Source: Streptomyces seoulensis
Lineage (GTDB): Bacteria; Actinomycetota; Actinomycetes; Streptomycetales; Streptomycetaceae
Reading direction: 5' to 3'
NCBI RefSeq assembly: GCF_004328625.1
Contig: NZ_CP032229.1
Coordinates: 3,162,001-3,226,000 of the forward strand
Length of the DNA: 64,000 bases
The notes beneath the pieces are model-generated. The model ran no database searches and was not told the DNA's origin. It saw nothing but the letters and a program-made list of their open reading frames with translations. The stretch's first letter is position 1, and every line of letters starts with the position of its first letter. Positions 9,124-31,432 of this stretch are shown one piece after another. Position numbers and translations under genes: made by a program.

Positions 9124-11772
9124 TCAGGCAGTCCAGATCGGCTGACCGCACTCGGCTTCACCCGACTGGCCGGGGAGGGGCAGCTCGGACAGCAGCGAAG
9201 CGGTCAGTTGTTCAGTGCCCTCGCGAATGGCACGGACGGCTGCGGTGCGCAGCAGGAACGCCAGCCGGCCCACATTGCCACCGGTGCGCTCGTGCAGGAA
9301 GCCGGCTTGAGCGGTGAGGGTGCCTGGTTCGTGCGCATGCAGGCGCAGTGCCGCCTCGGTCTCACTGATCATCCGGACCCAGTCCTCGTCCGGTGGCAGG
9401 TCGGACAGGTGGACGGGTGCCAGTCGACGGTACGGGCTGCGTGTCACCTCGCCGGCGAGAGCGTCGGGGGCGCCGATGCCGGCGAAGGCGAAAGTCGCCG
9501 GGATGCGGTCGCACAAGTAGTCCAGGACTTCGACCACAGACGTGCCGGCTCCGCCAGGACTGCGCAGATGCTGGATCTCATCGACCAGGATCAGCCTGGT
9601 CCGGGCGGTCTCCATGGCCTTGCTCACCTGAACCACCAGATCGGCGGTCGTCAGTGAGCCACGCAGGGGGAGGCCAAGGCGGCGGCCCAGTTCGGCCAGC
9701 AGTAGACGCGGTGAGGTGGCCGGAGCCAGCCGGGTGTAGACCACTGGGACGGTTTCCTCGTCCGGCTCCTGGGCGGTGCAGCGGCGGGCCGATTCCCACA
9801 GCGCGGTCGTCTTCCCCGTGCCGGCCTGGCCGGTCAGCAGAACCCCATAACGGGCGCCTGACGTATGTCTGTTGATGGTCCGTGCGTCCTCGATCTGCCG
9901 CGCGGCGGCCGTAACTCCAGGCGCGCGCAGGGGAAGTCGGGCGTGGTAGGTCAGGCGGACCTCCTCCGGAAGTGCGCGTGTGGGATCTGCCAGGGTGGGG
10001 AGCTGGGAGACGGAGTTCATCCAGTTTTTGAAGCGCCTCCAATCGTGCAACGACGGTCTGTCCGCGGGGGCATGGGTGGGAGCTGGCTGGTTGCCGACGG
10101 ACGGCTCCGGGCCGGCCTGATCGGCGTCGGCGTAGCGGGAGGTGTGGTCAAGTGGCCTGTTTCCCAAGGTGAGGTGGAGGGAAGGCGGCTCGGCAGGAGG
10201 CATGACACGAGCCGTGATCCACTCGGCGTCCCCGGACCGCAGCCACACGTTTCTGAGGTCGTAGGGGTCCCACCGCACTTCCAACGGGCGGCGGCCTGTG
10301 CTGGGCGGCGTAGTCTGCCGCAGCCGCTTCAGGTCGGGGGCGTCATAGAGGCGCCCGCCGAGCCGTATCCCCGAGGACCCGACCACACGCTGGGCCGTCT
10401 TCAGGAACGGCGTGAGGTATTGCGGGGGGATGGGAACTGGTGTCCAGCCCGCCGTGGCGGTCAGCGTCTCATGGCGGGTCCGGGGAGTGTGCGCTCCGCC
10501 TATGGGGGCGGTCGATACTGGCATGTCCGGCCAGACGCGGGCCACCCACACCTCCAGCAGATCCTGCACCATCTCTGGTGGCCACCCCGCCTCGCGGGCC
10601 GACTGCCCGGCAGCGGAGAGCAGATGCTCGCTGAACAGCGACGTGAAGCGCTGTAGCGTGCGCTCCACGCCCACGCGGTCCACCGGGCGCAGGTGCCGCG
10701 CGGACCGGACGTGGATCCCCAGATTGGCGCAGGCTTCACGCAGCGCCCGCAGGCCGGGCGCGTTCACGTCGTCGATCACGAGGGCGGCCGGGCGGACCAC
10801 GAGCGGGGGTGCATGCCGCCGGTTCGGGGGCCGTGCGTTGCCGGACAGCAGGGCGCCCCAGTCCGCCCACAACTCCGTCGGCGCGCACATCCGGGCCAGC
10901 AGCGTCGCGTGCAGCGACGGTCGGGGCCCGGCGTGGACCACGGCGGTCAGGACGAGTCTGGTCGCCTCGTCGAGTGCGACCAGCAGCCGTAGGCGACGGC
11001 CCGGGCCTTCCTGCCCGAAGGGCAGGGGAAGCTCGACCGTCTCCAGGTGAACACGCTCCCCTACCGCCACCACGCTCCCCGTCCTTTCCTTCCCCGTGTG
11101 GACTAGAAGCTGGGCGGCGAGGCGCCGGACGACGGCCCGGGACGGCCGGGGCAACTCGCCCGCCGCGATGGGCACAGCCAGACGTGCCAGCACCCGCTCG
11201 TGCAACTGCCCGGCGGGCAGGGGCCGGTCCGGCGGTTGTGCAGCGACAACTTCCTGCACCACGGCTTGTACTCGGGGGTGCAACCCAGGTCCGTCCGTTG
11301 CTGCGTGCCGTCCGGCTCGTCCGTCGGTGAGACCAGCCAGACCGCGCTGCTGATACCGCTGCCGTTTGCGCCGCACCGTCCGCGCCGCCGCCCCGCCTAC
11401 GCCCAGCACGGCCAGCTCCCTGGCCTTGGCATCCTCTCGCTCAGCCAGCGTGTGGCGGGTGGGGTCGTAGCCAGGGCGCGGCTTGGTACCGGGCGGCGCG
11501 CCGTACGGCACGCCGGTCAGCACCTCAGTGACATGCTGCCGCCACCATAGGGCCCGCTCCGGCACCGACGGATCCGGTGAAGGCGTGCCGCCGCCCCCCA
11601 GGAACGCGAAATCCTCTGCCGCCAGCAGTGCGACCACATCGATGTGGTCAGTGGCGCCCAGGACGTCCCGCAGCGCCACGCGTCCGCCGCACACCCCGGT
11701 CACCGTGCACACCTGCCCGTCGAACCGAACCCGGTCACCTGTGCCGAGCCGGTCGGGCCACGACGCGCCCAT
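9124..11772 (-). CDS. Single-chain fusion of TnsB/TniA-type integrase and TnsC/TniB-type AAA+ ATPase
   Basis: 882-aa protein. Order: small N-terminal domain (RLGTGDRVRFDGQVCTVTG); HTH (LGVGGAAARTVRRKRQRYQQRG, about 123-145); RNase H-fold integrase (about 235-400); Mu-type C-terminal beta region (YDAPDLKRL, WDPYDLRNVWLR); then an AAA+ module with Walker A GQAGTGKTT (about 648-656), Walker B LILVDEIQHL (about 727) and a sensor region (FAFAGIGAPDAL). Catalytic candidates are E244 (VHLETVEL, where Mu/TnsB enzymes have Asp), D334/D335 (LVIDDVN) and E370 (VGVERTLQRF), giving a D-35-E spacing. These activities are normally on two proteins. ATG 11772 follows GAGGGAG; an in-frame ATG at 11793 is possible. 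Confidence 0.8.
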   Translation of the reverse strand: MGASWPDRLGTGDRVRFDGQVCTVTGVCGGRVALRDVLGATDHIDVVALLAAEDFAFLGGGGTPSPDPSVPERALWWRQHVTEVLTGVPYGAPPGTKPRPGYDPTRHTLAEREDAKARELAVLGVGGAAARTVRRKRQRYQQRGLAGLTDGRAGRHAATDGPGLHPRVQAVVQEVVAAQPPDRPLPAGQLHERVLARLAVPIAAGELPRPSRAVVRRLAAQLLVHTGKERTGSVVAVGERVHLETVELPLPFGQEGPGRRLRLLVALDEATRLVLTAVVHAGPRPSLHATLLARMCAPTELWADWGALLSGNARPPNRRHAPPLVVRPAALVIDDVNAPGLRALREACANLGIHVRSARHLRPVDRVGVERTLQRFTSLFSEHLLSAAGQSAREAGWPPEMVQDLLEVWVARVWPDMPVSTAPIGGAHTPRTRHETLTATAGWTPVPIPPQYLTPFLKTAQRVVGSSGIRLGGRLYDAPDLKRLRQTTPPSTGRRPLEVRWDPYDLRNVWLRSGDAEWITARVMPPAEPPSLHLTLGNRPLDHTSRYADADQAGPEPSVGNQPAPTHAPADRPSLHDWRRFKNWMNSVSQLPTLADPTRALPEEVRLTYHARLPLRAPGVTAAARQIEDARTINRHTSGARYGVLLTGQAGTGKTTALWESARRCTAQEPDEETVPVVYTRLAPATSPRLLLAELGRRLGLPLRGSLTTADLVVQVSKAMETARTRLILVDEIQHLRSPGGAGTSVVEVLDYLCDRIPATFAFAGIGAPDALAGEVTRSPYRRLAPVHLSDLPPDEDWVRMISETEAALRLHAHEPGTLTAQAGFLHERTGGNVGRLAFLLRTAAVRAIREGTEQLTASLLSELPLPGQSGEAECGQPIWTA

Positions 11773-11889
11773 CCGCGCTCCCTCGGTCCGCATTTCGGGG
11801 CCGGGCCGAGCCGCACCGAGATGCGCCCGCGCGCGTTCACACCGCGCGCCAGAACACCTCGGCGCCGCTGGCACCGGCCTGCCTCCCGA

Positions 11890-12034: not shown

Positions 12035-12487
12035 GTGACCTTCTCCCCCTCAACCCCCACCGCTGTCGTCCGGCCAGTCGTCATCGACCCGGCTGCTCGC
12101 TGCTTCCTGTTGGTGCCCGCCGAACACCAGGGCACCGAATGCTGGTCAGTGCCAGCCGTACCCGTGAGGGTCGGCGAGTCCTACCGTCGGACCGCGGTGC
12201 GTTACCTGCGACGGCAGGCTGGTCTGCCGCCCGTACGGATCACACCCGTTGTCGGGGTCCTGCCAGCCATCGACGATCGCAGACAGACGGAATACGTGGT
12301 CCTGGCGAGACCGGTCGCCGAGGCCTGGCCGCCAGACGTGCGTGCTCTGCTGGGGGACGGAGCCCGCTGGTGGAGCACTGCCCAACTGCGGGACGCGGGT
12401 GTGCGGGTGGAGCCCGACTCGTTGCCGCTGCTCATGGACGGCTACTGGGAGGGATGGCTGCCCGACGGGGTGATCGCCCTTGAGTGA
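12035..12487 (+). CDS. Nudix-fold protein with degenerate Nudix box
   Basis: About 150 aa with a Nudix-like fold: strand TAVVRPVVIDPAARCFLLVPAE, then VRVGESYRRTAVRYLRRQAGL at the Nudix-box position, then EYVVLARPVAEAW and WWSTAQLRDAGV. The canonical box GX5EX7REUXEEXGU needs the REUXEE glutamates; here the segment reads RYLRRQ, so hydrolase activity is doubtful and a ligand-sensing role is more likely. GTG 12035 is preferred because GGGAAGG lies about 8 nt upstream; GTG 12026 is in the same frame. Nudix-like genes are often carried by actinobacterial integrative elements. Divergent from the transposition gene. Confidence 0.6.
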   Translation: MTFSPSTPTAVVRPVVIDPAARCFLLVPAEHQGTECWSVPAVPVRVGESYRRTAVRYLRRQAGLPPVRITPVVGVLPAIDDRRQTEYVVLARPVAEAWPPDVRALLGDGARWWSTAQLRDAGVRVEPDSLPLLMDGYWEGWLPDGVIALE

Positions 12488-12739
12488 GTTGGAAGGCAGG
12501 AGGAGTGAGGTGTCTCCCGTTGAGATCAGACTGACGCTGGTGGTCGGCGCGGTCGAGCTGAGGGCGGCGCGCCGACCAAGCCGTCTGCCTCCGCCGGCGT
12601 TCGGTGGCGGTAAGCATCTCGTGTTCCTCGTTTCGGCAGAGGATGAGCGCACCAGCGTATGGAAGATCTGGAAGCGGTCGGGCGACGCACTGGCCGCCGA
12701 TGTTCTGTGAGAGTTATCGCGGTCGTTTAGTGCTTCAGG
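12488..12739. other. Non-coding stretch between Nudix-like gene and IS remnant
   Basis: I see no convincing gene, hairpin or promoter here. The only open frame, at 12480-12710, has no ribosome site and no recognisable motif. Confidence 0.4.
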
Positions 12740-12745
12740 AAGACC

Positions 12746-12970
12746 ATGACGGAGGTTGTCCGGGAGCTGGATGTCAGTTCGGAGGGTCTGCGTAACTGGG
12801 GCCGGTGTGAGAAGACTGATCAGGGCGAAGGAGCCGACGACGAGCTTGCGAGTGTCGAGCGGGAGAACCTCCGGCAGTTGCGCAAGCGGAATAGTGAAAG
12901 GCAGCAGGCGGACAGCGACGGCCACCTCGCGAGTGGTTGGAGGTTGCAACCGCGCCGCCGTCCACATTGA
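12746..12970 (+). pseudogene. Remnant of an IS3-family transposase OrfA
   Basis: The reading frame starts inside the HTH of an IS3-type OrfA (VVRELDVSSEGLRNW, compare the usual VARELGVSxETLRNWV). It continues with LASVERENLRQLRKRNSERQQADSD, matching the Leu-zipper part (ERxELxRLRxENxxLR). The N-terminal part is missing, and no OrfB or terminal repeats follow, so this is a decayed fragment. Confidence 0.6.
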
Positions 12971-13182
12971 ACAGTGATCGCCCTCTGGCAGATCCGAAGG
13001 GGCGATGGCGCAGAGGTGACCTTGACCAAGCTCTACGAGACTGGTCCGCTTGGTCAGTTGGGATGTCTTTCTGGGGGTGCCCGCGTGTTCAAGTCGGCTC
13101 TGCATGCGCTGTTCCGGTTCGCTGGCCGCGGAACCGGACTCGTTGGACGCTGCTCGGCCGGCCTGGTGACGCACTCGTGAGG

Positions 13183-15957
13183 GTGAGGCGGGGCGCGATG
13201 ATCGCCGCCGTCGCCGGCGCGGGCGCGATCACCACCATGCTCGTTGGTCTGGTCACGAACGCCGTTTCCGCACAGTCACATTGGCCTTCATGGCTGGGGT
13301 GGTTGCAGGCACATCCCTGGCTGTCCTTCGTCATTCTGGGGGTGGTCACGGCAGGGCTGACGACGTTGCTCACCGCGTTGGGCGATCACCGAGAGCCGGT
13401 GCAGAGGCCCGAGCCGGCAGTGCGCCCGGACGTCGGTTCAGGTCCGCCAGGGGCCGCCCTGGTGCTGCGGTCCTTACCACGCGACACCGCGGCGTTCACT
13501 GATCGGTCAGCAGAGCTGGAGTCGCTGGTGCGCTCGGTACGTGCTGCGCAGGAGACCGGAGAGGCCCTGCTGGTCCACGTCATCGACGGGATGCCCGGAG
13601 TGGGGAAGACGACCTTCGCGGTGCACGCCGGGCACGTGCTCTCCGAGCGGTTCCCTGACGGGCAGCTCTTTGTCAACCTGAACGGGCACACGGCGGGGCG
13701 CAGCCCAGTACAGGCGGCCGAGGCTCTCGCGTCGCTCCTTGCGGCCGCCGGCGTACCGACGCAGCAGATCCCCGTTGGCGATGATGTCGGCGCGATCACG
13801 GAGGCGCGGGCTGCCATGTGGCGCAGCAGGCTCGCGGACAAGAAGGCGCTGCTCATCCTCGACAACGCAGCCAGCTATCGGCAGTTGGAGCCTTTGCTTC
13901 CCGGCGGGAGGGACTGCCTCGTGTTGGTGACCAGCCGCAAGCGGCTGGCGGCCCACGAGGAAGTGGTGCTGCCAGTCGAGGCACTGCCGTCCGATCACGC
14001 GGTGGACCTTTTCGTACGGCTCAGCGGGCGGACGGCGGACACGCTCGACCGGGATGCGGTCGAGGACCTGGTGCGACTGTGTGGATACCTCCCGCTGGGA
14101 GTGTCACTGCTCGCAGCGCGACTACGGCACCATCCCTCCTGGAGCGCCGGGGATCTGCATGAGCGGTTGATGGCGGCCCGGGACCGGCTGGGAGAACTGC
14201 GCGCCGGCGAGCGCGCGGTCGCCGCGACGTTCGAACTGTCCTATCGGGACCTCGCACCGGAACGCCAGCACTTCTTCCAGTGCCTCGGTTTCCACCCGGG
14301 CACGGAACTCGACGTGTACGTGGCGGCTGCGCTCGGATCGGTTTCGGCGGTGGTAGCCCGACAGCAATTGGAAGCGCTCTACGACGCCCATCTGATCGAC
14401 GAACACCCAGGGAGTCGTTACCGGCTTCACGATCTCCTACGCGACTACGCTCGCGGTCTCGCTGACGGAGGAGACAGCATGGCCCACGTACAGGCCGTTC
14501 AGCGTGTGTGCACCTACTACCTGGCCGCTCTGGCTGTCGCGAATGAGCACATCGTCCGCAGCGGTTCGACGGTTCCACCTTCAGCCGGCGACGCGGGGCA
14601 CGTTGAGACTCCGGTCATGGAGTCTCGTACGGCGGCACTGGGCTGGCTGGAGAACGAGCGGCCCAACATTCTGGCCTGCATCCGACAGGCCAACGGGTTC
14701 GCCCTGCATGACCTCGTGGTCCGTCTGGCTGAGTCGATGGCCCCCTTCCTACGGCAGGCCGGCCCCTGGGACCAGGCCGTCGGGCTTCACCGGACGGCTG
14801 CCGGGGCCGCCCGCCGCACTGGTGACCAGCGGGCGTTGGCCGGCGCACTGGCCGAGCTCGGCGTCGTACGGCGCTTCATGGCGTCCTACTCCGAAGCGAC
14901 AGAAGCCCTGAACGAGGCGGTGACGCATTACGACGCGGTCGGGGACCGGAGTGGCAAGGCGGACGCCCTGAATCAGCTGGGCATCGTCTGGTACCTGACC
15001 GCGGACAACGATGCCTCGGCCCGCGCCCAGACTGAGGCACTCGCCCTCTACCGCGAGCTCGGGGACCGGCTCGGTCAGGCCAACGCGCTGGCCGACCTCG
15101 GTATGGTGCGGCGCCAGACCAGCAGGTTCGATGAGGCCGTCGAGGCCCAGTCCGAAGCGCTGTCGATCTACCGCGACCTCAGCGACCGGTACGGAGAGGC
15201 CAACTCCCTGCGGGACCTGGGCATCGTCCACTCCCTCATGGGCGAGTACGGCTTGGCCGCCCAGCGGCAGCGTGAAGCGTTCGACATCTACAAGGCACTG
15301 GACGACCGGGTCCACCAGGCCTACGCCCTGAACGAGATGGGTGTGGTGCAGAGGCTCATCGGTGATCTCGATGGTGCTCGCGGCGCTCATGTTCAGGCCT
15401 TGGAGTACTTCACCGAGCTCGGTGAACGCTTCGGCCGCGCGAACAGCATCCGCCACCTTGGGGTGCTGGACCGCCTGTCCGGCGACATGCCGACGGCGAT
15501 CCGTCTTCTCGAGGAGGCTCTGGAGGCGTATCGCGACCTGGGCAGCCGTGGGGGCGAAGCCGCTGCGTTGAGCGAACTGGGGGTCGCCCGCGGGATCGTC
15601 GGTGAGCAGGACGGTGCTGCTGAGGCGTTCCGGCAGAGCCTGGAGATCCTGCGCGATCTCGGAGACCGCTGCGGCGAGACGGAACTGCTCAACCACTGGG
15701 GAGCGCTCCTGCGCACGTTCGGTGACCCGACTGCCGGGCGCTGGCGCTTCGAACAGGCGCTGGTTCTTGCCCAGGACATCCGCTGCCCGTTGGAGGAGGC
15801 ACGGGCACTGGAAGGGATCGGCCGCTGCGACCGGGTGATCGACGGGCCCGACCGGGCCGAGGGGACGCTACGTGAAGCGCTCACCGTGTACCGGCAGCTG
15901 GGCGTGAGCGCATCGGCCGACGACGTCGAGCGGCTCTTGGTCTCGCAGACGGGATGA
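13183..15957 (+). CDS. Membrane-anchored NB-ARC/TPR STAND protein (FxsT-like)
   Basis: About 924 aa. Two N-terminal hydrophobic segments (MIAAVAGAGAITTMLVGLV and WLSFVILGVVTAGLTTLL) precede an NB-ARC ATPase with entry motif FTDRSAELESLV, Walker A GMPGVGKTT (about 136-144) and Walker B KKALLILDNA. A winged-helix segment and roughly eight TPR repeats follow (YREL/YRDLGDR...A..LGVV pattern, residues about 590-900). STAND proteins of this layout often accompany FxSxx-type radical SAM peptide clusters, and the next two genes fit that. GTG 13183 (RRGAM) follows family starts; ATG 13198 and GTG 13177 are alternatives. About 135 bp separate it from the peptide gene. Confidence 0.75.
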   Translation: MRRGAMIAAVAGAGAITTMLVGLVTNAVSAQSHWPSWLGWLQAHPWLSFVILGVVTAGLTTLLTALGDHREPVQRPEPAVRPDVGSGPPGAALVLRSLPRDTAAFTDRSAELESLVRSVRAAQETGEALLVHVIDGMPGVGKTTFAVHAGHVLSERFPDGQLFVNLNGHTAGRSPVQAAEALASLLAAAGVPTQQIPVGDDVGAITEARAAMWRSRLADKKALLILDNAASYRQLEPLLPGGRDCLVLVTSRKRLAAHEEVVLPVEALPSDHAVDLFVRLSGRTADTLDRDAVEDLVRLCGYLPLGVSLLAARLRHHPSWSAGDLHERLMAARDRLGELRAGERAVAATFELSYRDLAPERQHFFQCLGFHPGTELDVYVAAALGSVSAVVARQQLEALYDAHLIDEHPGSRYRLHDLLRDYARGLADGGDSMAHVQAVQRVCTYYLAALAVANEHIVRSGSTVPPSAGDAGHVETPVMESRTAALGWLENERPNILACIRQANGFALHDLVVRLAESMAPFLRQAGPWDQAVGLHRTAAGAARRTGDQRALAGALAELGVVRRFMASYSEATEALNEAVTHYDAVGDRSGKADALNQLGIVWYLTADNDASARAQTEALALYRELGDRLGQANALADLGMVRRQTSRFDEAVEAQSEALSIYRDLSDRYGEANSLRDLGIVHSLMGEYGLAAQRQREAFDIYKALDDRVHQAYALNEMGVVQRLIGDLDGARGAHVQALEYFTELGERFGRANSIRHLGVLDRLSGDMPTAIRLLEEALEAYRDLGSRGGEAAALSELGVARGIVGEQDGAAEAFRQSLEILRDLGDRCGETELLNHWGALLRTFGDPTAGRWRFEQALVLAQDIRCPLEEARALEGIGRCDRVIDGPDRAEGTLREALTVYRQLGVSASADDVERLLVSQTG

Positions 15958-16091
15958 ACCTGAACGAAATACGTGACGAGTTTCCGTATGTCGCGGTGAG
16001 TGGCAGCACTGCTACGTTGCGAGCTGATCTGTTGCTTCAACCACCATCGCCGCGTTCCAGTCTCTCGGCACGCCATCACGAGGAGCGTTGA

Positions 16092-16283
16092 ATGCCGTCC
16101 AGCATGACTGTTCCCTGCCCATCGCCTTCCGGTCCGGACACCGCGGAGTCCGCGCCCGGCCTCGAAGTCCTGGACCGTGTAGCCGCCCGCGTGCAGCGCC
16201 GTCTGGCCGCTGAGCAGGCCGCCTCGAACAGCATCGGGGATGGCGCCCACGCAGCCTCGCTGATCTGGCCGTGGCCGCTGTAG
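16092..16283 (+). CDS. Candidate RiPP precursor peptide with WPWPL C-terminus
   Basis: 63 codons. An acidic, helix-prone leader (PGLEVLDRVAARVQRRLAAEQAA) is followed by a short variable stretch and the C-terminus AASLIWPWPL. GAGGAG lies about 8 nt before ATG 16092, and the stop is 13 nt before the radical SAM start, which strongly suggests translation as a small peptide. FxsA precursors end in FxSxx; this one does not, but W-P-W matches the aromatic-x-x pattern that related SPASM enzymes turn into three-residue cyclophanes. The core assignment is inference. An in-frame ATG at 16104 is a possible alternative start. Confidence 0.6.
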   Translation: MPSSMTVPCPSPSGPDTAESAPGLEVLDRVAARVQRRLAAEQAASNSIGDGAHAASLIWPWPL

Positions 16284-16296
16284 TCACGGCTGCTTG

Positions 16297-17460
16297 ATGA
16301 CACCGACGCCTCCGCACAGGCCGTTCCACACCTTCATTCTCAAGGTCGCAAATCGATGCAACATTGACTGCGACTACTGCTATGTCTTCAACTCCAAGGA
16401 CCAGGCATGGCGAAGCCTGCCGGCACGGATGAGCGTGGACGTGGCCCAGACGGCGGCTCGGAGGATCGCCGAGCACGTGGTGACGTACCGGCTGCGGACC
16501 GTCCACATCGTGCTGCATGGTGGTGAGCCACTGCTCGCCGGGCCCCGGCATCTGGGGGAGATTCTCCGCGTACTCAAGGACGGCATTCCGCCCGAGGTCG
16601 AGGTGCGCTTCGAACTGCAGACCAACGGGACCCTTGTGTCGGAGGCGTGGCTCGACCTCTTCGAGCAGTATGCGGTGACGGTAGGCGTCAGCCTTGACGG
16701 ACCGCCTGCTGCCAACGATCGGCACCGACTTTCACACGCGTCCAGGTCGAGCGCGGCCTCGGCAGTGCGGGGCATCGAGCTGTTGCGGTCCCGGCCCGGG
16801 CTGTTCGCTGGGCTGCTCGCCGTCGTGGACCTGGCGAACGATCCCCTGGAGGTGCACGACTACCTCGCGTCATTCGAGCCTCCGGTGATCGACTTCGGGC
16901 TGCCGCACGGGACCCACGATGCGCCGCCGGATCGGAACGATCCCGCTACTCCCGAGTACGGGGTGTGGATGAGCCGCGTCTACGACGCATGGCTTGCCCG
17001 GTCTGAGTATCAGCACAGCGTGCGCATGCTGGAGGACATCGTGGCGCTCAGCTCCGGCGCACGCGGCGCGGTGGAGACCCTCGGGCTCGCGCCGCCTGCC
17101 AGCGTCGTGATCGAGTCCGACGGCTCAGTGGAGGGCGTGGACACCCTGCGCTCGGTGGAGGAGAGAGCCTCATGGCTGGGGCTCGACGTCTTCAGTGACT
17201 CCTTCGATGCGGCCATCCACCATCCCAAGCTCCTGCACCGGCAGGAGGACGGAACGGCCGCCCTCTCTGAGGAGTGCCAACGCTGTCCGCTGGTGGCCAT
17301 ATGCGGCGGTGGCTACCTGCCACACCGTTTCAGCGCGGCACGAGGGTATCGGAACCCGTCCGTCTACTGTGCGGACCTGGCGTATCTCATCCGGCATGTC
17401 CAGGGTTCTCTGCAGCGGCACGGCTGGGCCCTGGGGGCTGCTGCCGCCGGGTCCTCGTAG
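16297..17460 (+). CDS. Radical SAM/SPASM peptide maturase, FxsB-type
   Basis: 387-aa enzyme. The radical SAM cluster motif is C21xxxC25xxC28 (VANRCNIDCDYCYVFN), with SAM-binding HGGEPLL and later FELQTNGTL and VGVSLDGP. The C-terminal SPASM-type Cys set is C327, C330, C336 and C358 (CQRCPLVAICGGGYLPHRF...NPSVYC), the FxsB subfamily signature. It lacks the C-terminal HExxH-type extension of long FxsB forms. Expected reaction: radical C-H cross-linking of aromatic side chains in the upstream peptide. ATG 16297 is preferred over the adjoining TTG. The GNAT gene follows 39 bp downstream. Confidence 0.82.
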   Translation: MTPTPPHRPFHTFILKVANRCNIDCDYCYVFNSKDQAWRSLPARMSVDVAQTAARRIAEHVVTYRLRTVHIVLHGGEPLLAGPRHLGEILRVLKDGIPPEVEVRFELQTNGTLVSEAWLDLFEQYAVTVGVSLDGPPAANDRHRLSHASRSSAASAVRGIELLRSRPGLFAGLLAVVDLANDPLEVHDYLASFEPPVIDFGLPHGTHDAPPDRNDPATPEYGVWMSRVYDAWLARSEYQHSVRMLEDIVALSSGARGAVETLGLAPPASVVIESDGSVEGVDTLRSVEERASWLGLDVFSDSFDAAIHHPKLLHRQEDGTAALSEECQRCPLVAICGGGYLPHRFSAARGYRNPSVYCADLAYLIRHVQGSLQRHGWALGAAAAGSS

Positions 17461-17499
17461 CAAACGAACGACCGCACGAGCGATAGGAGTTGCACGCTG

Positions 17500-17979
17500 A
17501 TGACCGCGACGATCCGGCCCGCCGAGAAAAGTGACGTCCGGGGACTGGCTGAACTGATCGAGGAGATCGAGCGGTTCTACGGCACGGCCGATGCTGACAT
17601 CCAGCCTTTCGACGAGCGCCAGGACCAGATCGAGGGGGCTCTCTTCGGCTCACCGCCTCTCGCCTCAGCCCTGCTGGTCGAGGACGAGGCCGGGGACGTC
17701 GTCGGTCTCGCCGCGTACTCGTTCCTCTGGCCGTCGGCGGGGTCCACCCACTCCCTCTTCCTCAAGGAACTGTACGTCCGTGACACCCTCCGTCGACAGG
17801 GAGTCGGCGAACGCCTCATGAAGGAGTTGCGTGCCATCGCTGCCGCACGCCCTGGGTGCAGCCGGGTCGAGTGGATGACTGACCGTGTAAATCCTGGCGC
17901 GCGTGCTTTCTACAAGTCGCTCGGGTTCGCAGAATTCGACGGGAAGATCGTCTACCGAGTCGAGATCGGTAAGACATGA
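17500..17979 (+). CDS. GNAT-family N-acetyltransferase
   Basis: 159 aa, one GNAT domain. The acetyl-CoA pyrophosphate-binding loop is LRRQGVGERLM (consensus Q/RxxGxG/A), preceded by LKELYVRDT and followed by VNPGARAFYKSLGF. AGGAG lies about 10 nt before ATG 17500. It follows the radical SAM gene at 39 bp on the same strand and may acetylate the modified peptide for export or self-protection. That role is inferred from position; the substrate cannot be read from sequence. Confidence 0.8.
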   Translation: MTATIRPAEKSDVRGLAELIEEIERFYGTADADIQPFDERQDQIEGALFGSPPLASALLVEDEAGDVVGLAAYSFLWPSAGSTHSLFLKELYVRDTLRRQGVGERLMKELRAIAAARPGCSRVEWMTDRVNPGARAFYKSLGFAEFDGKIVYRVEIGKT

Positions 17980-19035: not shown

Positions 19036-19124
19036 CCCCTGCCGCACCGAAATGATCTACTTCCCAGGCCGCCTCGATGCAGCTACTCTCGATGCAGGAT
19101 CTGAGCAAGTCATGGAGAGTGGCG

Positions 19125-20582
19125 ATGGGCCAGCAGACGCACCGTAGGGACGACCTCCTGGTCTCCTCCAACTTCATTCGAGCCATCCGTGAGTCGGGCT
19201 ACGTCAGCCTCTCGACCGCACTCGCAGAACTCATCGACAACTCGCTCCAAGCGGCAGCGACCGAGGTCGCCATCACGATCGTGCGGACCAAGGCTGGCGA
19301 GGATCCGGAGATCCATGTCGAGGACAACGGCGAAGGTATGTCGCGCTCCGAAATCGAGGCGTGTCTCCGCTTCGGCGGCTCGTCACGCTTCGACGAGCGG
19401 CAATCGTTCGGACGGTTTGGCATGGGGTTGCCCACTGCATCGCTCAGTCAGGCTCGACAGATCGAGGTAACCTCCTGGCAGAACGGTCGCGCCGCAAACC
19501 AGGTCTTCTTGGACGTCGAGACCGTCGCTACCGGAGTTCCAGTCGATCTTCGTGCCCGTCGGCAACCTGGCAACACTGTGGGCTCAGGGTGCCGAGTGGT
19601 TTGGCGAAACTGCGACCGTATCGAGTACCGGCGCCTCGCCTGGCTCGAGCGGGCCCTGCGTCGTGACCTTGGACGCCTGTATCGCCGCTTCCTGAGCAGT
19701 GGCGAACTTGTCTTGACCATTAACGGGAAGCGGGTCGATCCAGTCGATCCCATGCTCCTCACGGCGAAAGCCGAGGGCCGTAGTGCACGGCTGGCCTTCG
19801 AGCCGCTCCGCTACGAACTTGCTGCCTCGTCGGGCGAGACTGCCTTCGTCACAGTTCGGTTTGCGATGCTGCCGGTTCACCACTGGCATCACCTGGACAA
19901 TGCGACCAAACGACGTATGGGCATCGTCGGCGGGGCTGGCGTCTCCATCCTGCGTGCCGGTCGCGAGATCGCGAGTGGCTGGCACCTCATGGGCGCGAAG
20001 CGCAAGGAGAACTACGATGACTGGTGGCGATGCGAGATCGACTTTGCTCCCGTCCTCGATGAGCACTTCGGCATCACTGTCAACAAGCAGGGCATCCGCC
20101 CCTCTCAGGAACTTCAGGAGGCCCTCGGGGCGGAGTTGGAGTCGATCGCCCGGCTGTTGAACGCGCGCGTGCGCCAGGCTTTCGAGGAGGTCAAATTCCA
20201 AGCGGCGACGGAGACGTCATGCCGTATAGCGGCGGCTGCGGACGTTGACCTGCCCGTCATACGGTCGGCTGGGAAGGGCTCGGGTGCACTGAGCTACCGG
20301 ATCGGATCCGAGCAACTTCCGATTGAGACGATGTTCACCTCCGTCCTGAAGAAGCGCACACTCGACGTCACGCTGAACGTTGACCATCCAGCCTTCGTGG
20401 CGTTGTACCGACCCCTCCAGACGCTGGGTGACGAGGCAGGAAGAGAACTGCGCACTGCGCTCGAACTGTTCCTCCTGTCCTTCGCCCGCACCACAACCCT
20501 CCTGCTTCGCGACGGCCACAACTGCGACGACCTCCTGCGAGTATGGAGCAAAACCTACGGACGGATGCTCCAGAAGTCATGA
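19125..20582 (+). CDS. GHKL (HSP90/MORC-like) ATPase
   Basis: 485 aa. The N-terminal ATP-binding fold carries the Bergerat motifs ELIDNS (E35-S40), VEDNGEGM (65-72, G1) and FGRFGMGLPTAS (95-106, G2 lid). The rest is unlike histidine kinases and lacks a DHp domain, so it is a stand-alone MORC/MutL-type ATPase, a class found in several phage-defence systems. ATG 19125 is chosen because GGAGAG precedes it; the frame is open to 19077. Its TGA overlaps the next gene's ATG by 4 bp (ATGA), so the two products are probably made in fixed ratio and work together. Confidence 0.75.
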   Translation: MGQQTHRRDDLLVSSNFIRAIRESGYVSLSTALAELIDNSLQAAATEVAITIVRTKAGEDPEIHVEDNGEGMSRSEIEACLRFGGSSRFDERQSFGRFGMGLPTASLSQARQIEVTSWQNGRAANQVFLDVETVATGVPVDLRARRQPGNTVGSGCRVVWRNCDRIEYRRLAWLERALRRDLGRLYRRFLSSGELVLTINGKRVDPVDPMLLTAKAEGRSARLAFEPLRYELAASSGETAFVTVRFAMLPVHHWHHLDNATKRRMGIVGGAGVSILRAGREIASGWHLMGAKRKENYDDWWRCEIDFAPVLDEHFGITVNKQGIRPSQELQEALGAELESIARLLNARVRQAFEEVKFQAATETSCRIAAAADVDLPVIRSAGKGSGALSYRIGSEQLPIETMFTSVLKKRTLDVTLNVDHPAFVALYRPLQTLGDEAGRELRTALELFLLSFARTTTLLLRDGHNCDDLLRVWSKTYGRMLQKS

Positions 20583-22558
20583 AAGAAGAGGCCAAGCCCG
20601 TTACCCTCCGCCTCCCTGCCGACGCCTCTCGCCAAGAACAGCAAGGATTTGCCCGCCTTTGCACCCTGCTTGCGAGTGCCCCCGTCGGTTCCACAGGTGT
20701 GAACGGTCACGAGCACTGGATCCAGGCTGCCAAGATCAAAAAGCTGTACGAGCAGCCACTGCTCGCAGCAGCTGCACATACCGCCATCGACCTGGTGGAT
20801 CAAGGTTGGACGATCCGGACCGACAAGTCTGGGTACACCTTCACCCCTCCGTTGGCAAGCGGTGACCGTGAGAGGGAGAAGGCCCGGGTTCGACGTCAAG
20901 AACATCTGCGTCGTGATGAGCAACTTAGGCAGAGCAGCGTTCGACGCTTCGTCGAGAACATGGAGCGTACGCATCAGCACGGCGACCGGTTGGTCTCCAT
21001 CTTCAATTTGATGCGCGACGGCCGCGAACTGGCAGACGCGCTAGAGCGTGCCGGCGCGTCCACAGACATCATCAAGCCGTACGTTCAGATCGTCGACGCC
21101 TCGACCTGCGAGCTGACCGGTTTCAAGCTTCACGACATCTGGCGTTACTTCCGCCACACCTGGTCCAACGCCTACGCGACTGTCCCCGGCCGCTCGATGC
21201 CCATCTTGATCCGGGATGCAGCCACAGAGTTCCACACCGTGATTGGGCTAGCGGCGATCTCAAGCCCAGTCGTCCAGATCGCCGAGCGTGACCACTGGAT
21301 GGGATGGGAAACCGATCAGTTTCTCGAACAAGTGAGAACTAACCCCACCGTTGACATCGCCTGCTGGTTGGCTCGTCGGATCAATAGTCAGCAAGAAGAG
21401 ATCTATGTCGACGATCTCCTCAGGGACGGAATCCTTCAACCGACCGACCTGACGGCGCCCACTCCGGAGGTGATTGCCCGACTGCGTGATGACGCTGAAC
21501 GGCACCGTCAGCGGCACCACCAAGCCAGCTCAATCCGTGAGGTCCGCAACATAGAGCGCAATGCATGGGTGGATCGAGCCACGACAGATCTGTTTCGGAG
21601 TAAGCGCTCATCGGCGCTCGCCGAGACCTTGGAGATCAGTACTGTGCTGGGAGTGTATCTCTCCCCGCCCACGGCTGAAGGACTCACCAAAGCCTTCTCT
21701 GATTCAAAGGCACGGACTCAGATGCGCCGCGTTGTGCGCCGTGCACGTGGAGAGCGGGTTGGCACCGTCATCGCCGACCTCACTGTCTGTGGTGCCGTGG
21801 CCCCCTATAGCGCGCTAACGGCGGGGAAGCTTGTGGGGGCGCTAGCCGTCTCGCCGCAGGTACTGACTGCTTACCGGAAGAAGTACGCACGTCCCAGCGA
21901 AATCGCCTCGGCAATGGCCGGCCGACCGATCCTGCGGGAGCCTCGCCTTTCCTTCATCGGAACCACGTCGCTCTACGGCACTGGTTCAAGCCAGTACAAT
22001 CGGCTATTTTGGCCCGCTGATGTCATGGGGGGCAACAGCAATGTCCGGATGGGGTTCCACGAACTCGGACGGTCGCGCTCTTTCGGAACCTCACACTTCT
22101 CCAGTGAGACAGTCGATGCTCTGGTTCGGCTTTCGACGCTGCGTGGGTCGCTCGTACGGGTCAATAATCTGTTTGGTGAGGGTGTCAGCCCCCGTCTACG
22201 TAAGGTGCGGCTAGGCATCGCAGCTCTCGGGTGGCCCGCCAATGAACTCCTCAAGCACGGGCGTGAACGTATCCTCTACGGCGTTCCACTGGTCGCAAAT
22301 CTGCGAGACTACTCACTCGGCATCGACGAGGAACCGGAGTACCTAATCAATCCCGAGCTGCCCGAAGCAGACACCAGGGTCGCCGAATGGTGGTTCGAGC
22401 GCTGGTGCCATCAGAGGGCGGCCCGCCAGGACGTCCTTGAGTCCATGCGTTCCCATCGGCTGGTCCGTCCGGTCCGGCACGGTGCCCGGGTACCGCTGCC
22501 CATCGGAGACGGAATGCAGGCGATTGACGAAGAAATGCTCCCAATTTTCACAACATGA
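20579..22558 (+). CDS. DUF4338-like protein (resembles Druantia DruA family)
   Basis: 659 aa from ATG 20579, which overlaps the GHKL stop; ATG 20543 is in frame and possible. A charged helical N-terminus precedes FRHTWSNAYATVPGRSMPILIRDA...VIGLAAISSPVVQIAERDHWMGW, similar to the GRxxxYLI...LG...RDxWIGW pattern of DUF4338. The second half has LTAGKLVGALAVSPQVLTAYRKKY, a TTSLYGTGSSQYNR segment, and VNNLFGEGVSPRLRKVRLG. DUF4338 is the domain of Druantia DruA. The family call rests on remembered patterns, not a search; the function is unknown, with a defence role inferred from its neighbours. Confidence 0.5.
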   Translation: MKEEAKPVTLRLPADASRQEQQGFARLCTLLASAPVGSTGVNGHEHWIQAAKIKKLYEQPLLAAAAHTAIDLVDQGWTIRTDKSGYTFTPPLASGDREREKARVRRQEHLRRDEQLRQSSVRRFVENMERTHQHGDRLVSIFNLMRDGRELADALERAGASTDIIKPYVQIVDASTCELTGFKLHDIWRYFRHTWSNAYATVPGRSMPILIRDAATEFHTVIGLAAISSPVVQIAERDHWMGWETDQFLEQVRTNPTVDIACWLARRINSQQEEIYVDDLLRDGILQPTDLTAPTPEVIARLRDDAERHRQRHHQASSIREVRNIERNAWVDRATTDLFRSKRSSALAETLEISTVLGVYLSPPTAEGLTKAFSDSKARTQMRRVVRRARGERVGTVIADLTVCGAVAPYSALTAGKLVGALAVSPQVLTAYRKKYARPSEIASAMAGRPILREPRLSFIGTTSLYGTGSSQYNRLFWPADVMGGNSNVRMGFHELGRSRSFGTSHFSSETVDALVRLSTLRGSLVRVNNLFGEGVSPRLRKVRLGIAALGWPANELLKHGRERILYGVPLVANLRDYSLGIDEEPEYLINPELPEADTRVAEWWFERWCHQRAARQDVLESMRSHRLVRPVRHGARVPLPIGDGMQAIDEEMLPIFTT

Positions 22559-22704: not shown

Positions 22705-23898
22705 TCAATTCTCGCTTGAGTCAGGTGTTTCCAAACCTGAAAGATGGCACAGGAATCTCGAATCGACCTCGATATGGCCTGTTAGACGCCAAGCGCGCCG
22801 CTCGTAAGACAGGTCTCCCGTCACAGTAAAAGGCAGTTGGCGCTCGTAGGCCATTATCGCCCAACCGTGGTCATCCCCTACAAGCGGAACATGGACTCGC
22901 AGAGTCTTTCCGTTCACCTCTGCCGCGACAATAGCCGTTGCTGTCTCTCCCTCGCCGGGAGTCGAGTCGTCCCGTGCGAGTGACTTAACAGGTCCAACCA
23001 GCGTTTCTCGTCGTACGGGCTCCTCCCTTCTCAGGAGCTGTTCTCGAACACGCGGGAGCTCAACAATCAAGTCTCGGTCCAGCATAATAGTTGCTAGACC
23101 TACATCCGGCTTACGTTCGGCTGCTGCCCATTCGAAGGACAAGTCCAGCGAACGAAGATGCTCTGGCTGCGACATTTCTTCGAGTGACTCCACGAGTCCA
23201 GCACTGAGGCCCACGCTGCTTGGAGATGAAAGGGATTTTTGGTCCCAAGATTGCGTCAGACGCTTTGTGGTCTCAATTCCCCTGGCTAGGGTCTCCATCA
23301 CTTGCCGCGGGAAAGGCACAGTGCGTCGATCGCGGCCATCGATTGGTTCTGGGCTAACGTCCCCTAGACGGGATACTACGGTGAACACAAAGCTGCCGCG
23401 CTTCGTGTGTCCAAGCCTTATATCTTCATCCAAATATTCATTCACCATCGCCGGCCGACGCCCTCTATGCGGGTGATGAGGGTCGGCCGCTGTTGTTGCA
23501 GCTGCCTTCATTATCTTGAGGATAGCCTGCAGTGTCTTTTCGGCCTGTTGAAACGGAATCGTCCCGTCGAGCATCTCTTGATCGAGACGTACGAAGAACA
23601 GATCTGCGCGTGTCGCAATCACGCGTTCCAAAAGTTGTCCAGCGTCCCAGTCATGGATGTGTCCGAGGGATTCCAGTGCATCCACAAAGCGTGGAGTGAA
23701 GTCTACGAAGTCCGTGGCCAGTGGGATCATGACACGAGGTGCCGTAGGCAACGGGCTGGAACGATAGCGCCAGATCTCGCGGACTCTCGGCTGCTGCAGT
23801 TCCAGTTCCCAATCGTGAGAAGCCAGGAACTGGGAGACAGCAGAGGGCGTAAGCGTGGACGCAACCTCGCGGTAACTGTCAAGTGCAGATCGGGTCAC
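22705..23898 (-). CDS. Hypothetical protein co-translated with DUF4365-type nuclease
   Basis: 397 aa, no recognised domain. The N-terminal 130 residues contain MIPLATDFVDFTPRFVDALESL and are mostly helical. The C-terminal 100 residues (GETATAIVAAEVNGKTLRVHVPL...YERQLPFTVTGDLSYERRAWRLTGHIEVD) look beta-rich. Base composition is clearly less GC-rich than the flanking core. Its ATG overlaps the stop of the DUF4365 gene by 4 bp, so the two form a unit, possibly a nuclease with its regulator. No transmembrane segment is seen. Confidence 0.65.
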   Translation of the reverse strand: MTRSALDSYREVASTLTPSAVSQFLASHDWELELQQPRVREIWRYRSSPLPTAPRVMIPLATDFVDFTPRFVDALESLGHIHDWDAGQLLERVIATRADLFFVRLDQEMLDGTIPFQQAEKTLQAILKIMKAAATTAADPHHPHRGRRPAMVNEYLDEDIRLGHTKRGSFVFTVVSRLGDVSPEPIDGRDRRTVPFPRQVMETLARGIETTKRLTQSWDQKSLSSPSSVGLSAGLVESLEEMSQPEHLRSLDLSFEWAAAERKPDVGLATIMLDRDLIVELPRVREQLLRREEPVRRETLVGPVKSLARDDSTPGEGETATAIVAAEVNGKTLRVHVPLVGDDHGWAIMAYERQLPFTVTGDLSYERRAWRLTGHIEVDSRFLCHLSGLETPDSSEN

Positions 23899-24794: not shown

Positions 24795-27700
24795 TCACTG
24801 CAGAGCTTGCTGAACGAGTTGGGCCGCGAATGGCAGATTGCGAGAGATCACCAGGTCATCGATTAGACGGACTTGTACGTCACTCTCTTTGGCATCCTGC
24901 AGCCTGTCGGTCGGCGCCACGTCAGGGGTCAGCGGGCTATGGACACCAAAGATCCATTGCTGGTCTCCCCGCCTTGCAAGGATGGGAGCAACAACCGTGC
25001 CGACACCCTTAATATCGACCTCGATGTTTCTTTCGAATGAGACGCCGTCGACCTCTCGGCTGGTGAGGTCCTCGTAGAGTTTGTCAGCAGATCGCGCGAG
25101 CCGCTCTGCGTCCAGAGCCGGAGGCGTCTCGTCGATCAGGTAGCGCAGCAGGCCGGCTCCGACGCGACGATCAAGAAGGTTGTGCTCGAACCGATTGCGG
25201 AAGCTACGCAGGCAGCGGTAGCAAGACTCATCGCAGTTTGCTGGACAGGTTTCGAGGAGTTCCAGCGTCTGCTCAAAGATCTCAATACCGTAGTCATTGA
25301 CCCGACGGGTGAAACCGGCGCCACCAGCGAGTGTGTCGTACAGGTAGATCTCAGCCTCAAGACCTTCGCCACCGCGGGGGGTGAGTGCTGGTCGATACTC
25401 CGCTTGCAGCTCTGCCGCCTCGATATCAAGCTTTCTGGTTGCGGCAATAGTTAGTGCCTCAGCGATTGTGCGCAGCGCGATGTGTGTAGACAGGTATGCC
25501 GGCATAAGCGTTAGGGGCGATTCCACCTTCAGGCGGACCAGGAGCACGTCAGAGATGAAGTCGGTTCCCAGAACTAGGCCGCGTGTCGAGCGAGCGCCGG
25601 GGCAATTTGGCTCCTTCTCGTCGGGGAATGGCTTCTTGTGCGTGCCGTGGACCACACCTGAGGAAGTTGCCGTCGGCTCGATGAGCCCGCAGCTTGTGCA
25701 GTAGGTGTACCCCTCATTGCGGGGGCCAGTGTTAGTCACGAGGAGCGTCTCGCGACGGTATGTCTGAGCTAGCCGCTCAGTGACTTGCTGCCAGGCATTC
25801 TCCTCGGTAGGCCCGGGGGCCATGAGCTTGGCGCGTGTGGCATAACTGCGCGCTGGGGCTTTGTCGGGACTGGTGCCGGGATCTTTCTTGACAGGGTGCG
25901 CAAATCCTGGAGGACGCATCCAGTTCTTTGCCTCGCCAAATGCCTCCTCGGTCCGACAGGCCGGACACGGGCGCGTTTCTCCGCGCTTGGCTTCCTGGTA
26001 GGAGAAGTGCTTGGCGTAATGACAGACCTGGCACTCGAAGTAGAGCAGCCTGTCCCGCCAGGCTTGGTAGCGGGTGTCCTGAACCGGTGCGTAAATAGCT
26101 CCAGAGGACCATTCTTTGCTATCGATCCATACTGCCTTTCCGGGGGCGTACTGGCTGAGTGCCACGGCAAGTCCCTGGCTGGGCGCATAGTGGAACTCAG
26201 GCCTGAACGGCGTCGATCGATGGATATCGAACACATAGAATGCGACGACATCTGTAGGGAAGGCGTAGCGAGGCAGTACTCCCTTGTACAGCAGTCGATC
26301 AAGCAGATTCTTCTGACCTCGCCGGGCGTCGGGCTCCTCCAGATCTTCAGTCAGCTCATCCCTATTTGCCTCTTCGCCCTCGGTTGGCGTATCCCTTTCG
26401 GAGGCAGTAACTGAGTTTCCACTGGAATCTAGGTCGAGAGCTTTGTCGATCTCGTGGAGAGTCCTTGTGGTGATTTCTGCTAGGAGGGACTGGCGGCTCT
26501 CCTTGCTTAGTTCGTCTGGGAGCCACGCCGCAACCTCTTCACGAAGGTGATCTTCGTTGGTTTTCAGCCACACCTCTAGGTCAGCTCGGTTCAGCGGAGA
26601 GGTTGATCCTGTGAAATCTCCAACTCTTCCGAGGACCTCGAAGAGCTGCGGTTGCTCGTCGGGCTCGATTGCAGGTAGGCGGTCCTGGTGGTAGCGCTGT
26701 AGCAGGTACGCGATGACATGACGCCGCGTGATTTCGTCGTTGTTCATCGTTAGTACTGGGTCATCGACTTCCCCGCGGATCATGAGATCTGGTTGGCGGA
26801 AGTAGTGGTCATCGTGGGTGTCGGCGCTGCCAAAAGCGAGGACTGTGGCGACGGCGTTGCCCCGACGCCCTGCTCGGCCTGCACGTTGCTGGTAGTTCGC
26901 GCGCGAAGGCGGCATATTGCGTAGCGCTACACCAGACAGATTGCCGATGTCGATGCCCACTTCCATAGTGGTCGTACAGGACAGAACATCGATGGCAGCG
27001 CGTTTCTGCTGATCTCCCGATCCAGGCAAGCCGAGGTCGACGTCCTGGAACAACAACTCGTGCTCTTCTGCTTTGGAGAAGACCGCATCTGACTGTGCCG
27101 CATTGAGCTGAGCCGTGTGCTCTGCAGCGATAATGCTCATTGGCAATTCGGGCGGGTTACGCAGAGCTCTAGCGGCGCTGGCGCGATAGTAGCCCATGCG
27201 AGCTTGGAAGACGGAGTCCGTTTCGGGATCGATTACACGAACTCGGGGGGCACAGCAGCTGACACACCGAGAAGTGCCGGGGAACGGCCTCTGAGTGAAG
27301 CGGCAGCGTTCGCAGTACCCCCAATCCTCCCTGAGATCCAAATAAATTTTCGACGCTGACAGTCGGTACTTTCCGCCTATGCCTTCGCAGAAGTGGCGAA
27401 GTAGTACGGGCAGCCAGTCATCGTTGAACTGCTTCTTCGAAGCTCTAGAATTAAGCCATCGTTCGAGTGGTTGGAATTTACCTGAATGAGGATGGACGCC
27501 GCCTTCCGTCATCCACCAGTCACCGTCGGTCATCGACGAAAACCAGATTCCACGATTCATCCATTGCATCAGCCACAACCGCACGAGGGCCAGCTTGGAA
27601 TCATCGCTGGTGGCGATATTTTCGATGTTGGGAAGTGCTGCGAGAAGTTCTGCGGATTTGGCTGGCGGTTCACGGAGAGAGGCCAGTCCAAGAGGTGTCA

Positions 27701-30344: not shown

Positions 30345-31432
30345 GCCACCCCTCCCTCTTCGCTGACATGCATCCATAGCATGTCAGCGAAGAACACCGA
30401 CAACTCACCGATCGCCGACATCGGTACGCGGTACGAGACCAAGGTCCCTCTTGCCCGTGAGACGGGGATCCCCACGAGTTCGAGGTAGCGCTGCGCCCAC
30501 GCAGGTACAGGGCTGAACAGGTCTAGACGCAGATCGCCGACTGTTCCTGCAGCGAGGTGCACGTGCATGGCTTGCGGAGTGCCCGTCAGAGCATCGATTG
30601 CTGCCTGCGTGCGCCACGCCTCGTCGCAGCCAGTTGCAGCGAGGTCATCAACGGGCAGATCGACCAGTGCTCGAGGTACGCCACGCACTACGCGTACAAA
30701 GCACCACAAGTCGGCACCATACGCTTGCGGGCGCCGACCAACGAAGTCTCCCGAGTCTGTGATGTCGATCGGCCGCCAGCGACCTCGGTAGTAGAGAACT
30801 GACGTCTGAGGATCAATGATCTTCAGGCCATCGACTTGACCAGACTCTCCTGCCCCGTCCAAGCGCTGGCGCATCACATCAACGACTGTGGCCGCACGCT
30901 CCGCCCTAGGTCGCTTGAGCCAGTGGTCGCGGAGAATCGCCTGCAGGCCGGCGGCCTGCAGGCGATCGGGGGCGACCTTAGCGTCGAGTTCGAGACACCG
31001 GGCATGGCCCTCGTGATGCACCTCCGCACCTAGTGCCTCGTTGACAAGCGGTGCGCCGTTGGGCCGCACGCCGAGCAGGAGATACCGTCCGGGCGCCTTT
31101 GTCACATACGAGGGCGGTGCCAAGTAGATCTGCCGGCTCGTGCGATCGCCATGGTGAGGGAGCTCGATTAGGTCACCGATTGACACCAAGAGATCCAATT
31201 GTGCAGCGACATCGTGGCGGGTCATCAAGGATGACTCGGCCAACGGGCTGAGAGCTTCAAGTACTGCGTCTACCAGTCGACGCGGGCTTGCCGGACACAA
31301 GACAGAGGCAGCGCGGCGGAGCAAAGCGCAGAGCGCTTCTGAAGAGAACAAGTCAGTTGATGTCTCGTCCAGCCAAAGCGCGCGAACTGTTCGTTCTGCA
31401 ACCATTTGATCGCTGAGCACGGTTATTTTCAC
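30341..31432 (-). CDS. Hypothetical protein of the DruE-like operon (middle gene)
   Basis: 363 aa, no domain recognised. The N-terminal 100 residues are helical (RTVRALWLDETSTDLFSSEALCALLRRAASVL), with a possible winged-helix part (LMTRHDVAAQLDLLVSIGDLIELPHHGDR). The C-terminal half is mixed (YYRGRWRPIDITDSGDFVGRRPQAYGADLWCFVRV). It overlaps both neighbours by 4 bp, a sign of tight translational coupling with the 963-aa protein and the helicase. It is most likely a subunit of the same defence complex. It contains an inverted repeat, CGCCTGCAGGCCGGCGGCCTGCAGGCG, at about 30938-30964. Confidence 0.7.
   Translation of the reverse strand: MKITVLSDQMVAERTVRALWLDETSTDLFSSEALCALLRRAASVLCPASPRRLVDAVLEALSPLAESSLMTRHDVAAQLDLLVSIGDLIELPHHGDRTSRQIYLAPPSYVTKAPGRYLLLGVRPNGAPLVNEALGAEVHHEGHARCLELDAKVAPDRLQAAGLQAILRDHWLKRPRAERAATVVDVMRQRLDGAGESGQVDGLKIIDPQTSVLYYRGRWRPIDITDSGDFVGRRPQAYGADLWCFVRVVRGVPRALVDLPVDDLAATGCDEAWRTQAAIDALTGTPQAMHVHLAAGTVGDLRLDLFSPVPAWAQRYLELVGIPVSRARGTLVSYRVPMSAIGELSVFFADMLWMHVSEEGGVA

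Follow-up and report, generated by a model that had tools for sequence, protein, structure and literature searches.

Gene content and identity of the haa locus

We analysed a 64000-nucleotide stretch of Streptomyces seoulensis DNA (contig NZ_CP032229.1 of assembly GCF_004328625.1, positions 3162001–3226000 of the forward strand; hereafter the window, with coordinates counted from its first base), in which four genes on the + strand at 13183–17979 encode, in this order, an NB-ARC/TPR protein (HaaT), a 63-residue precursor (HaaA) of a ribosomally synthesized and post-translationally modified peptide (RiPP), a radical S-adenosylmethionine (SAM) enzyme (HaaB) and a GNAT acetyltransferase (HaaN). 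An earlier reading of the sequence alone (the sequence-only reading) had described this four-gene layout together with the 63-residue peptide, its ribosome-binding site, a 13-nucleotide gap and the peptide end AASLIWPWPL, and all of these are present as it stated. The first gene, haaT (13183–15957), probably starts at GTG 13183, and its product carries the Pfam domains NB-ARC and TPR_12. The TTG at 12937, which opens a longer haaT open reading frame (ORF), is probably not the true start; the alignment to the HaaT model NF041717 begins at residue 84 of that longer ORF. Next comes haaA (16092–16283, ATG 16092), preceded by a GAGGAG ribosome-binding site at 16080–16085. Within it, codons 16248–16259 specify His53-Ala54-Ala55-Ser56, the probable cross-link motif, and codons 16266–16280 specify the tail Trp59-Pro60-Trp61-Pro62-Leu63. 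The haaB gene (16297–17460) has its ATG at 16297, 13 nucleotides after the haaA stop, with an alternative TTG at 16294, and encodes a predicted cyclophane-forming radical SAM/SPASM maturase of the FxsB family with a Radical_SAM domain; haaN (17500–17979, ATG 17500) encodes an N-acetyltransferase with an Acetyltransf_1 domain.

Equivalog models exist in NCBIfam for HaaA, HaaT and HaaN, and the window proteins passed all three. HaaA matched NF041708 (RiPP_phane_HaaA) with 110.9 bits (cut-off 55) over 63 of 63 model positions, HaaT matched NF041717 with 1575.5 bits (cut-off 1125) and HaaN matched NF041716 with 293.7 bits (cut-off 250). Thus, from its score with NF041708, the 63-residue peptide is not a chance ORF. 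HaaB scored 408.2 bits (cut-off 370) with TIGR04269, the model of the FxsB subfamily. A public Streptomyces plasmid record holds an identical layout under the Haa names, with a precursor ending in HQASLIWTWPL, and the available passages of a review describe the link that HaaB makes (see below). Given the models, the plasmid record and the review, the subclass is already known, and the proposal in the sequence-only reading that it might be undescribed does not stand; the window locus is a further copy, of Streptomyces type, of the described Haa RiPP system. Haa was presumably named after the HAA motif.

The locus has in common with the Haa triceptide cluster all of its genes, their order, the His-Ala-Ala motif and a full-length precursor match, and no difference was found by profiles. 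With the FxSxx-COOH system (FxsA, TIGR04268; FxsB, TIGR04269; FxsT, NF040586) it shares an enzyme of the FxsB subfamily and a TPR partner, but the window precursor ends in WPWPL instead of FxSxx and had no TIGR04268 match at E 0.01 in NCBIfam. HaaT scored 109.9 bits with the FxsT model NF040586, below its cut-off of 300. The description of the locus as an FxsB-family radical SAM RiPP cluster that carries a GNAT and whose precursor lacks FxSxx is thus upheld.

Occurrence of the four genes

A search at E 10 with the HaaA model of 394 genomes drawn from the family of the window, in which matches under the cut-off were set aside as chance, found HaaA at 18 places in 17 genomes, the window's own included. 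HaaT, HaaA, HaaB and HaaN follow one another in that order in all 18 clusters (the window and 17 others), and, when they are aligned, CGAGGAG precedes the precursor gene in 16. The 18 aligned HaaN sequences were then scanned over a one-genome-per-species collection, which gave 65 named loci. Full-length HaaB is encoded in 45 of these, with HaaT and a precursor preceding it in every case; the other 20, without a HaaB match of at least 300 residues, were excluded (a partial match in L089, L095 and L121, none in 17). Having been found with HaaN itself, the 45 loci are no independent gauge of how often HaaN occurs.

Precursors were sought without a motif filter, as every ORF of 30–90 codons that has a ribosome-binding site and ends just upstream of HaaB. 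Such a small ORF with His-x-Ala-Ser (HxAS) near its end lies directly upstream of HaaB at 63 of 63 loci (18 + 45), and a second upstream ORF of this kind, lacking HxAS, is found at 26 of the 63. After removal of 13 sequence repeats, 50 distinct precursors remained, the plasmid-record copy standing outside them.

The motif shared by the precursors

The window peptide runs to GDGAHAASLIWPWPL, its C-terminus reading GDGA-HAAS-LIWPWPL with HAAS at residues 53–56. The His, the Ala at +2 and the Ser at +3 are invariant in the 50 distinct precursors, the residue between His and Ala being Ala in 40, Gln in five, Ser in three, His in one and Met in one, whereas the tail varies: WPW is present in 26 of 50, W-x-W in 31 and the exact WPWPL in 19. 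Thus the conserved motif is His-x-Ala-Ser. The alignment of homologous precursors, which the sequence-only reading had proposed as a check on a conserved C-terminal WPW, returned that feature in only about half of the precursors.

Five of the 50 have no Trp, Phe or Tyr after HxAS. Four belong to Micromonosporaceae loci (L103, L104, L105 and L108; the family was checked for three and L104 was assigned by its genus), from a Dactylosporangium, two Micromonospora and an Actinoplanes, each with HaaT, HaaB and HaaN. Their precursors end in HSASIPEHP, HAASLPAQS, HAASIPAQS and HSASIPAR respectively, so that the tails are IPEHP (with a His of its own), LPAQS, IPAQS and IPAR. The fifth (L055) comes from the window's own genus and has IRPRPS after HAASL.

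These counts bear on the proposal that HaaB links Trp59 to Trp61, or to Pro or Leu, in the WPW tail, which would make the peptide an undescribed subclass. In its favour are the retention of W-x-W in 31 precursors and, in the available passages of the review, the use of Trp or Phe as the aromatic partner by other three-residue cyclophane enzymes (PMC11002830). The same passages have the described enzymes of the HaaB type using His-Ala-Ala, and the precursor matches the HaaA model over its whole length. In a rapidly built tree of the 50 HaaB proteins and the FxsB of the window genome, in which support is weak for 16 of the 48 inner branches and the change counts are accordingly rough, the fewest changes needed are nine for the first Trp, five for the second and 12 for W-x-W. 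With at least 12 changes of W-x-W, tails free of Trp, Phe and Tyr in clusters of the same genes, and an invariant HxAS, a Trp link in the tail is highly improbable. WPW is probably not the cross-link site, and we rejected it as the ring site on conservation; the ring in the window peptide is more probably at His53-Ala54-Ala55, six residues before WPW.

The maturase HaaB and the second FxsB system of the genome

The HaaB orthologues keep CxxxCxxC in 50 of 50, CxxCPxxxxCGGGxxxHR in 44 (five of the six misses have a residue other than Pro, and the sixth, L074, is garbled) and NPSVYC in 47, the three misses being single-residue changes, of which that in L069 loses the Cys. The garbled SPASM stretch of L074 (Actinacidiphila soli) lies near the C-terminus between intact neighbours, as a local frame shift or an error of sequencing would produce. 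Among solved chains, ChlB (9gm3, 251.5 bits) is the nearest to HaaB.

One further FxsB over the cut-off is encoded in the window's genome, at C1:4221354 (430.3 bits), 43% identical with the window HaaB over aligned columns and accompanied by FxsT (852.5 bits). A peptide ending in GFNNCL at C1:4.22 Mb passes the FxSxx-COOH model with 41.8 bits (cut-off 28), scored as a 59-residue piece. The existence of this FxSxx-family peptide is what could favour the idea that the window enzyme acts on a precursor encoded elsewhere and that the 63-residue ORF is not its substrate. The peptide adjoins its own FxsB and FxsT, however, and an HaaA-type peptide accompanies 63 of 63 HaaB enzymes. There is next to no chance that this idea is right, and the GFNNCL peptide was rejected as the true substrate. 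The Haa and FxSxx systems stand apart in this genome. Two findings had been named beforehand as telling against a WPW cross-link: homologous loci without a WPWPL-type ending, which exist, and an FxSxx precursor elsewhere serving as the true substrate, which was not found, since the one present adjoins its own FxsB.

The partner proteins HaaN and HaaT

A GNAT gene occupies the equivalent place in 18 of 18 HaaA-model clusters and in all 45 named loci with a full-length enzyme from the HaaN search. HaaN is thus a standard member of the Haa cluster, and the idea that the acetyltransferase had replaced a usual partner is not borne out. No precursor among the 50 has a Lys from the motif His to the C-terminus, and 40 have none at all. 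A Lys in the C-terminal stretch therefore cannot be the HaaN target, and the simplest target would be the α-amine at the N-terminus freed by leader removal.

HaaN-related sequences were also seen outside complete clusters. Three named Streptomyces genomes (L107, L110 and L113) have partial HaaN matches, beginning at residue 48, 51 and 37 respectively, with no HaaB match in the stretch, and are possibly decayed Haa clusters. Seven further loci (L114–L120), from Frankia, Kribbella, Rhizocola and metagenome-assembled genomes, encode HaaN relatives with 48–52% identity and likewise lack any HaaB match in the stretch, which suggests that GNATs of this family occur in other contexts too.

HaaT is probably a STAND-type NTPase, and its NB-ARC and TPR domains suggest a role in sensing or regulation. 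By eye, it has two hydrophobic stretches near the N-terminus.

Proposed modification of HaaA

In the available passages of a review (PMC11002830), HaaB (WP_133931326.1) links C2 of His to Cβ of Ala, for which Sugiyama et al. 2022 is cited, and ScaB (WP_184986415.1) makes the same C2(His)–Cβ(Ala) link in a natural substrate with a His-Ala-Ala motif, for which He et al. 2022 is cited. Passages of a second paper give the mechanism of triceptide enzymes as hydrogen abstraction followed by addition to the aromatic ring (PMC12257519). We likened the window motif to the ScaB substrate and link as the review describes them; by this analogy, the window enzyme would perform the HaaB/ScaB-type His-Ala reaction.

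We consider it very probable that the locus is an HaaA-type triceptide cluster whose product has a His-Ala ring with the tail outside it. HaaA would be made with a leader, the end of which we infer, containing the conserved stretch VLDRVAARVQRRL. HaaB, acting as described for HaaB and ScaB, would take a hydrogen from Cβ of Ala55 and bond this carbon to C2 in the imidazole of His53, closing a three-residue cyclophane over His-Ala-Ala. WPWPL would lie beyond the ring, as a C-terminal tail that drifts from species to species. HaaN would probably acetylate an amine on the processed peptide, the simplest candidate being the α-amine that leader removal frees, and HaaT would probably sense or regulate.

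Several observations weigh against this proposal or parts of it. The four Micromonosporaceae loci are distant ones: two of their four precursors were scored and gave 26.6 and 31.8 bits, under the HaaA cut-off of 55, and the one Micromonosporaceae HaaN scored gave 228.2 bits against a cut-off of 250; the HaaT of that same locus, with 1464.6 bits, passes its cut-off of 1125. In a class-level draw of 394 genomes, the HaaN model found two genomes over the cut-off, the window's own included, and nine at E 1e-30, so that the Haa cluster is sparse outside its family. The 25 best NCBIfam matches listed for the window enzyme include no HaaB-only model, this enzyme was likened to WP_133931326.1 and ScaB by description and not by sequence, and the His-Ala chemistry was taken from passages of the review PMC11002830 and not from the primary papers. 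For HaaN, the solved chains closest in sequence are an integron-cassette protein, a thialysine acetyltransferase, a probable N-acetyltransferase and diamine acetyltransferases, a set as compatible with a small or lysine-like amine as with an N-terminus. With thialysine and diamine acetyltransferases among them, these chains do not settle HaaN as a clear N-terminal acetyltransferase.

The tail itself supplies a further point of this kind. Its third position is Trp in 35 of the 50 precursors and its fifth in 41, so that the tail is not neutral and may matter. This partial conservation favours an alternative in which the His-Ala ring is made and the tail receives a second modification in W-x-W strains, by HaaB or by another enzyme. 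Against it, the four genes stay constant across clusters whose tails differ, the flanks having been surveyed for those four genes alone, and we regard a second modification as very unlikely. A related idea, for which we see a small chance, is that in W-x-W Streptomyces lines the tail adds to the His-Ala ring a second element, itself modified or binding a target, and that HaaN acetylates the N-terminus of the core once it is released. The product would then be an acetylated cyclophane peptide bearing an arm rich in Trp, a product that the available passages of the papers do not describe. We retain the His-Ala ring with an outlying tail as the preferred explanation.

Other genes of the window

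A 342-residue ORF on the − strand (12146–13174) adjoins haaT and had no Pfam or NCBIfam match at E 0.01. On the same strand, a 916-residue ORF (9124–11874) matches both the C-terminal domain of Mu-type transposases and the AAA domain of TniB, and is possibly a fusion of two transposition proteins.

Downstream of the cluster, profiles detected defence genes of Druantia type I, namely DruA1 at 20543–22558 (+ strand, 953 bits), DruE1 at 24795–30377 (− strand, 2022 bits) and DruD1 at 30341–31432 (− strand, 449 bits). DruD is adjoined by a 963-residue ORF (31429–34320, − strand) with no PADLOC or Pfam match at E 0.001. The beginning of DruA is overlapped by an ORF for an MzaB-like HATPase (19077–20582, 70 bits), and 22705–23898 encodes a candidate-defence protein, PDC-M02B (590 bits). 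These two ORFs lie close to where a region of lower GC content begins, 0.57–0.61 over approximately 20–36 kb compared with 0.735 in the next 4 kb.

Conclusions

The locus opens no new peptide class. It illustrates how misleading the final residues of a precursor can be when read without an alignment of homologues: the 50 aligned precursors part an invariant ring motif from a drifting tail. The target of HaaN, the role of HaaT and the function of the product are questions of the whole Haa family, and not of the window copy in particular.

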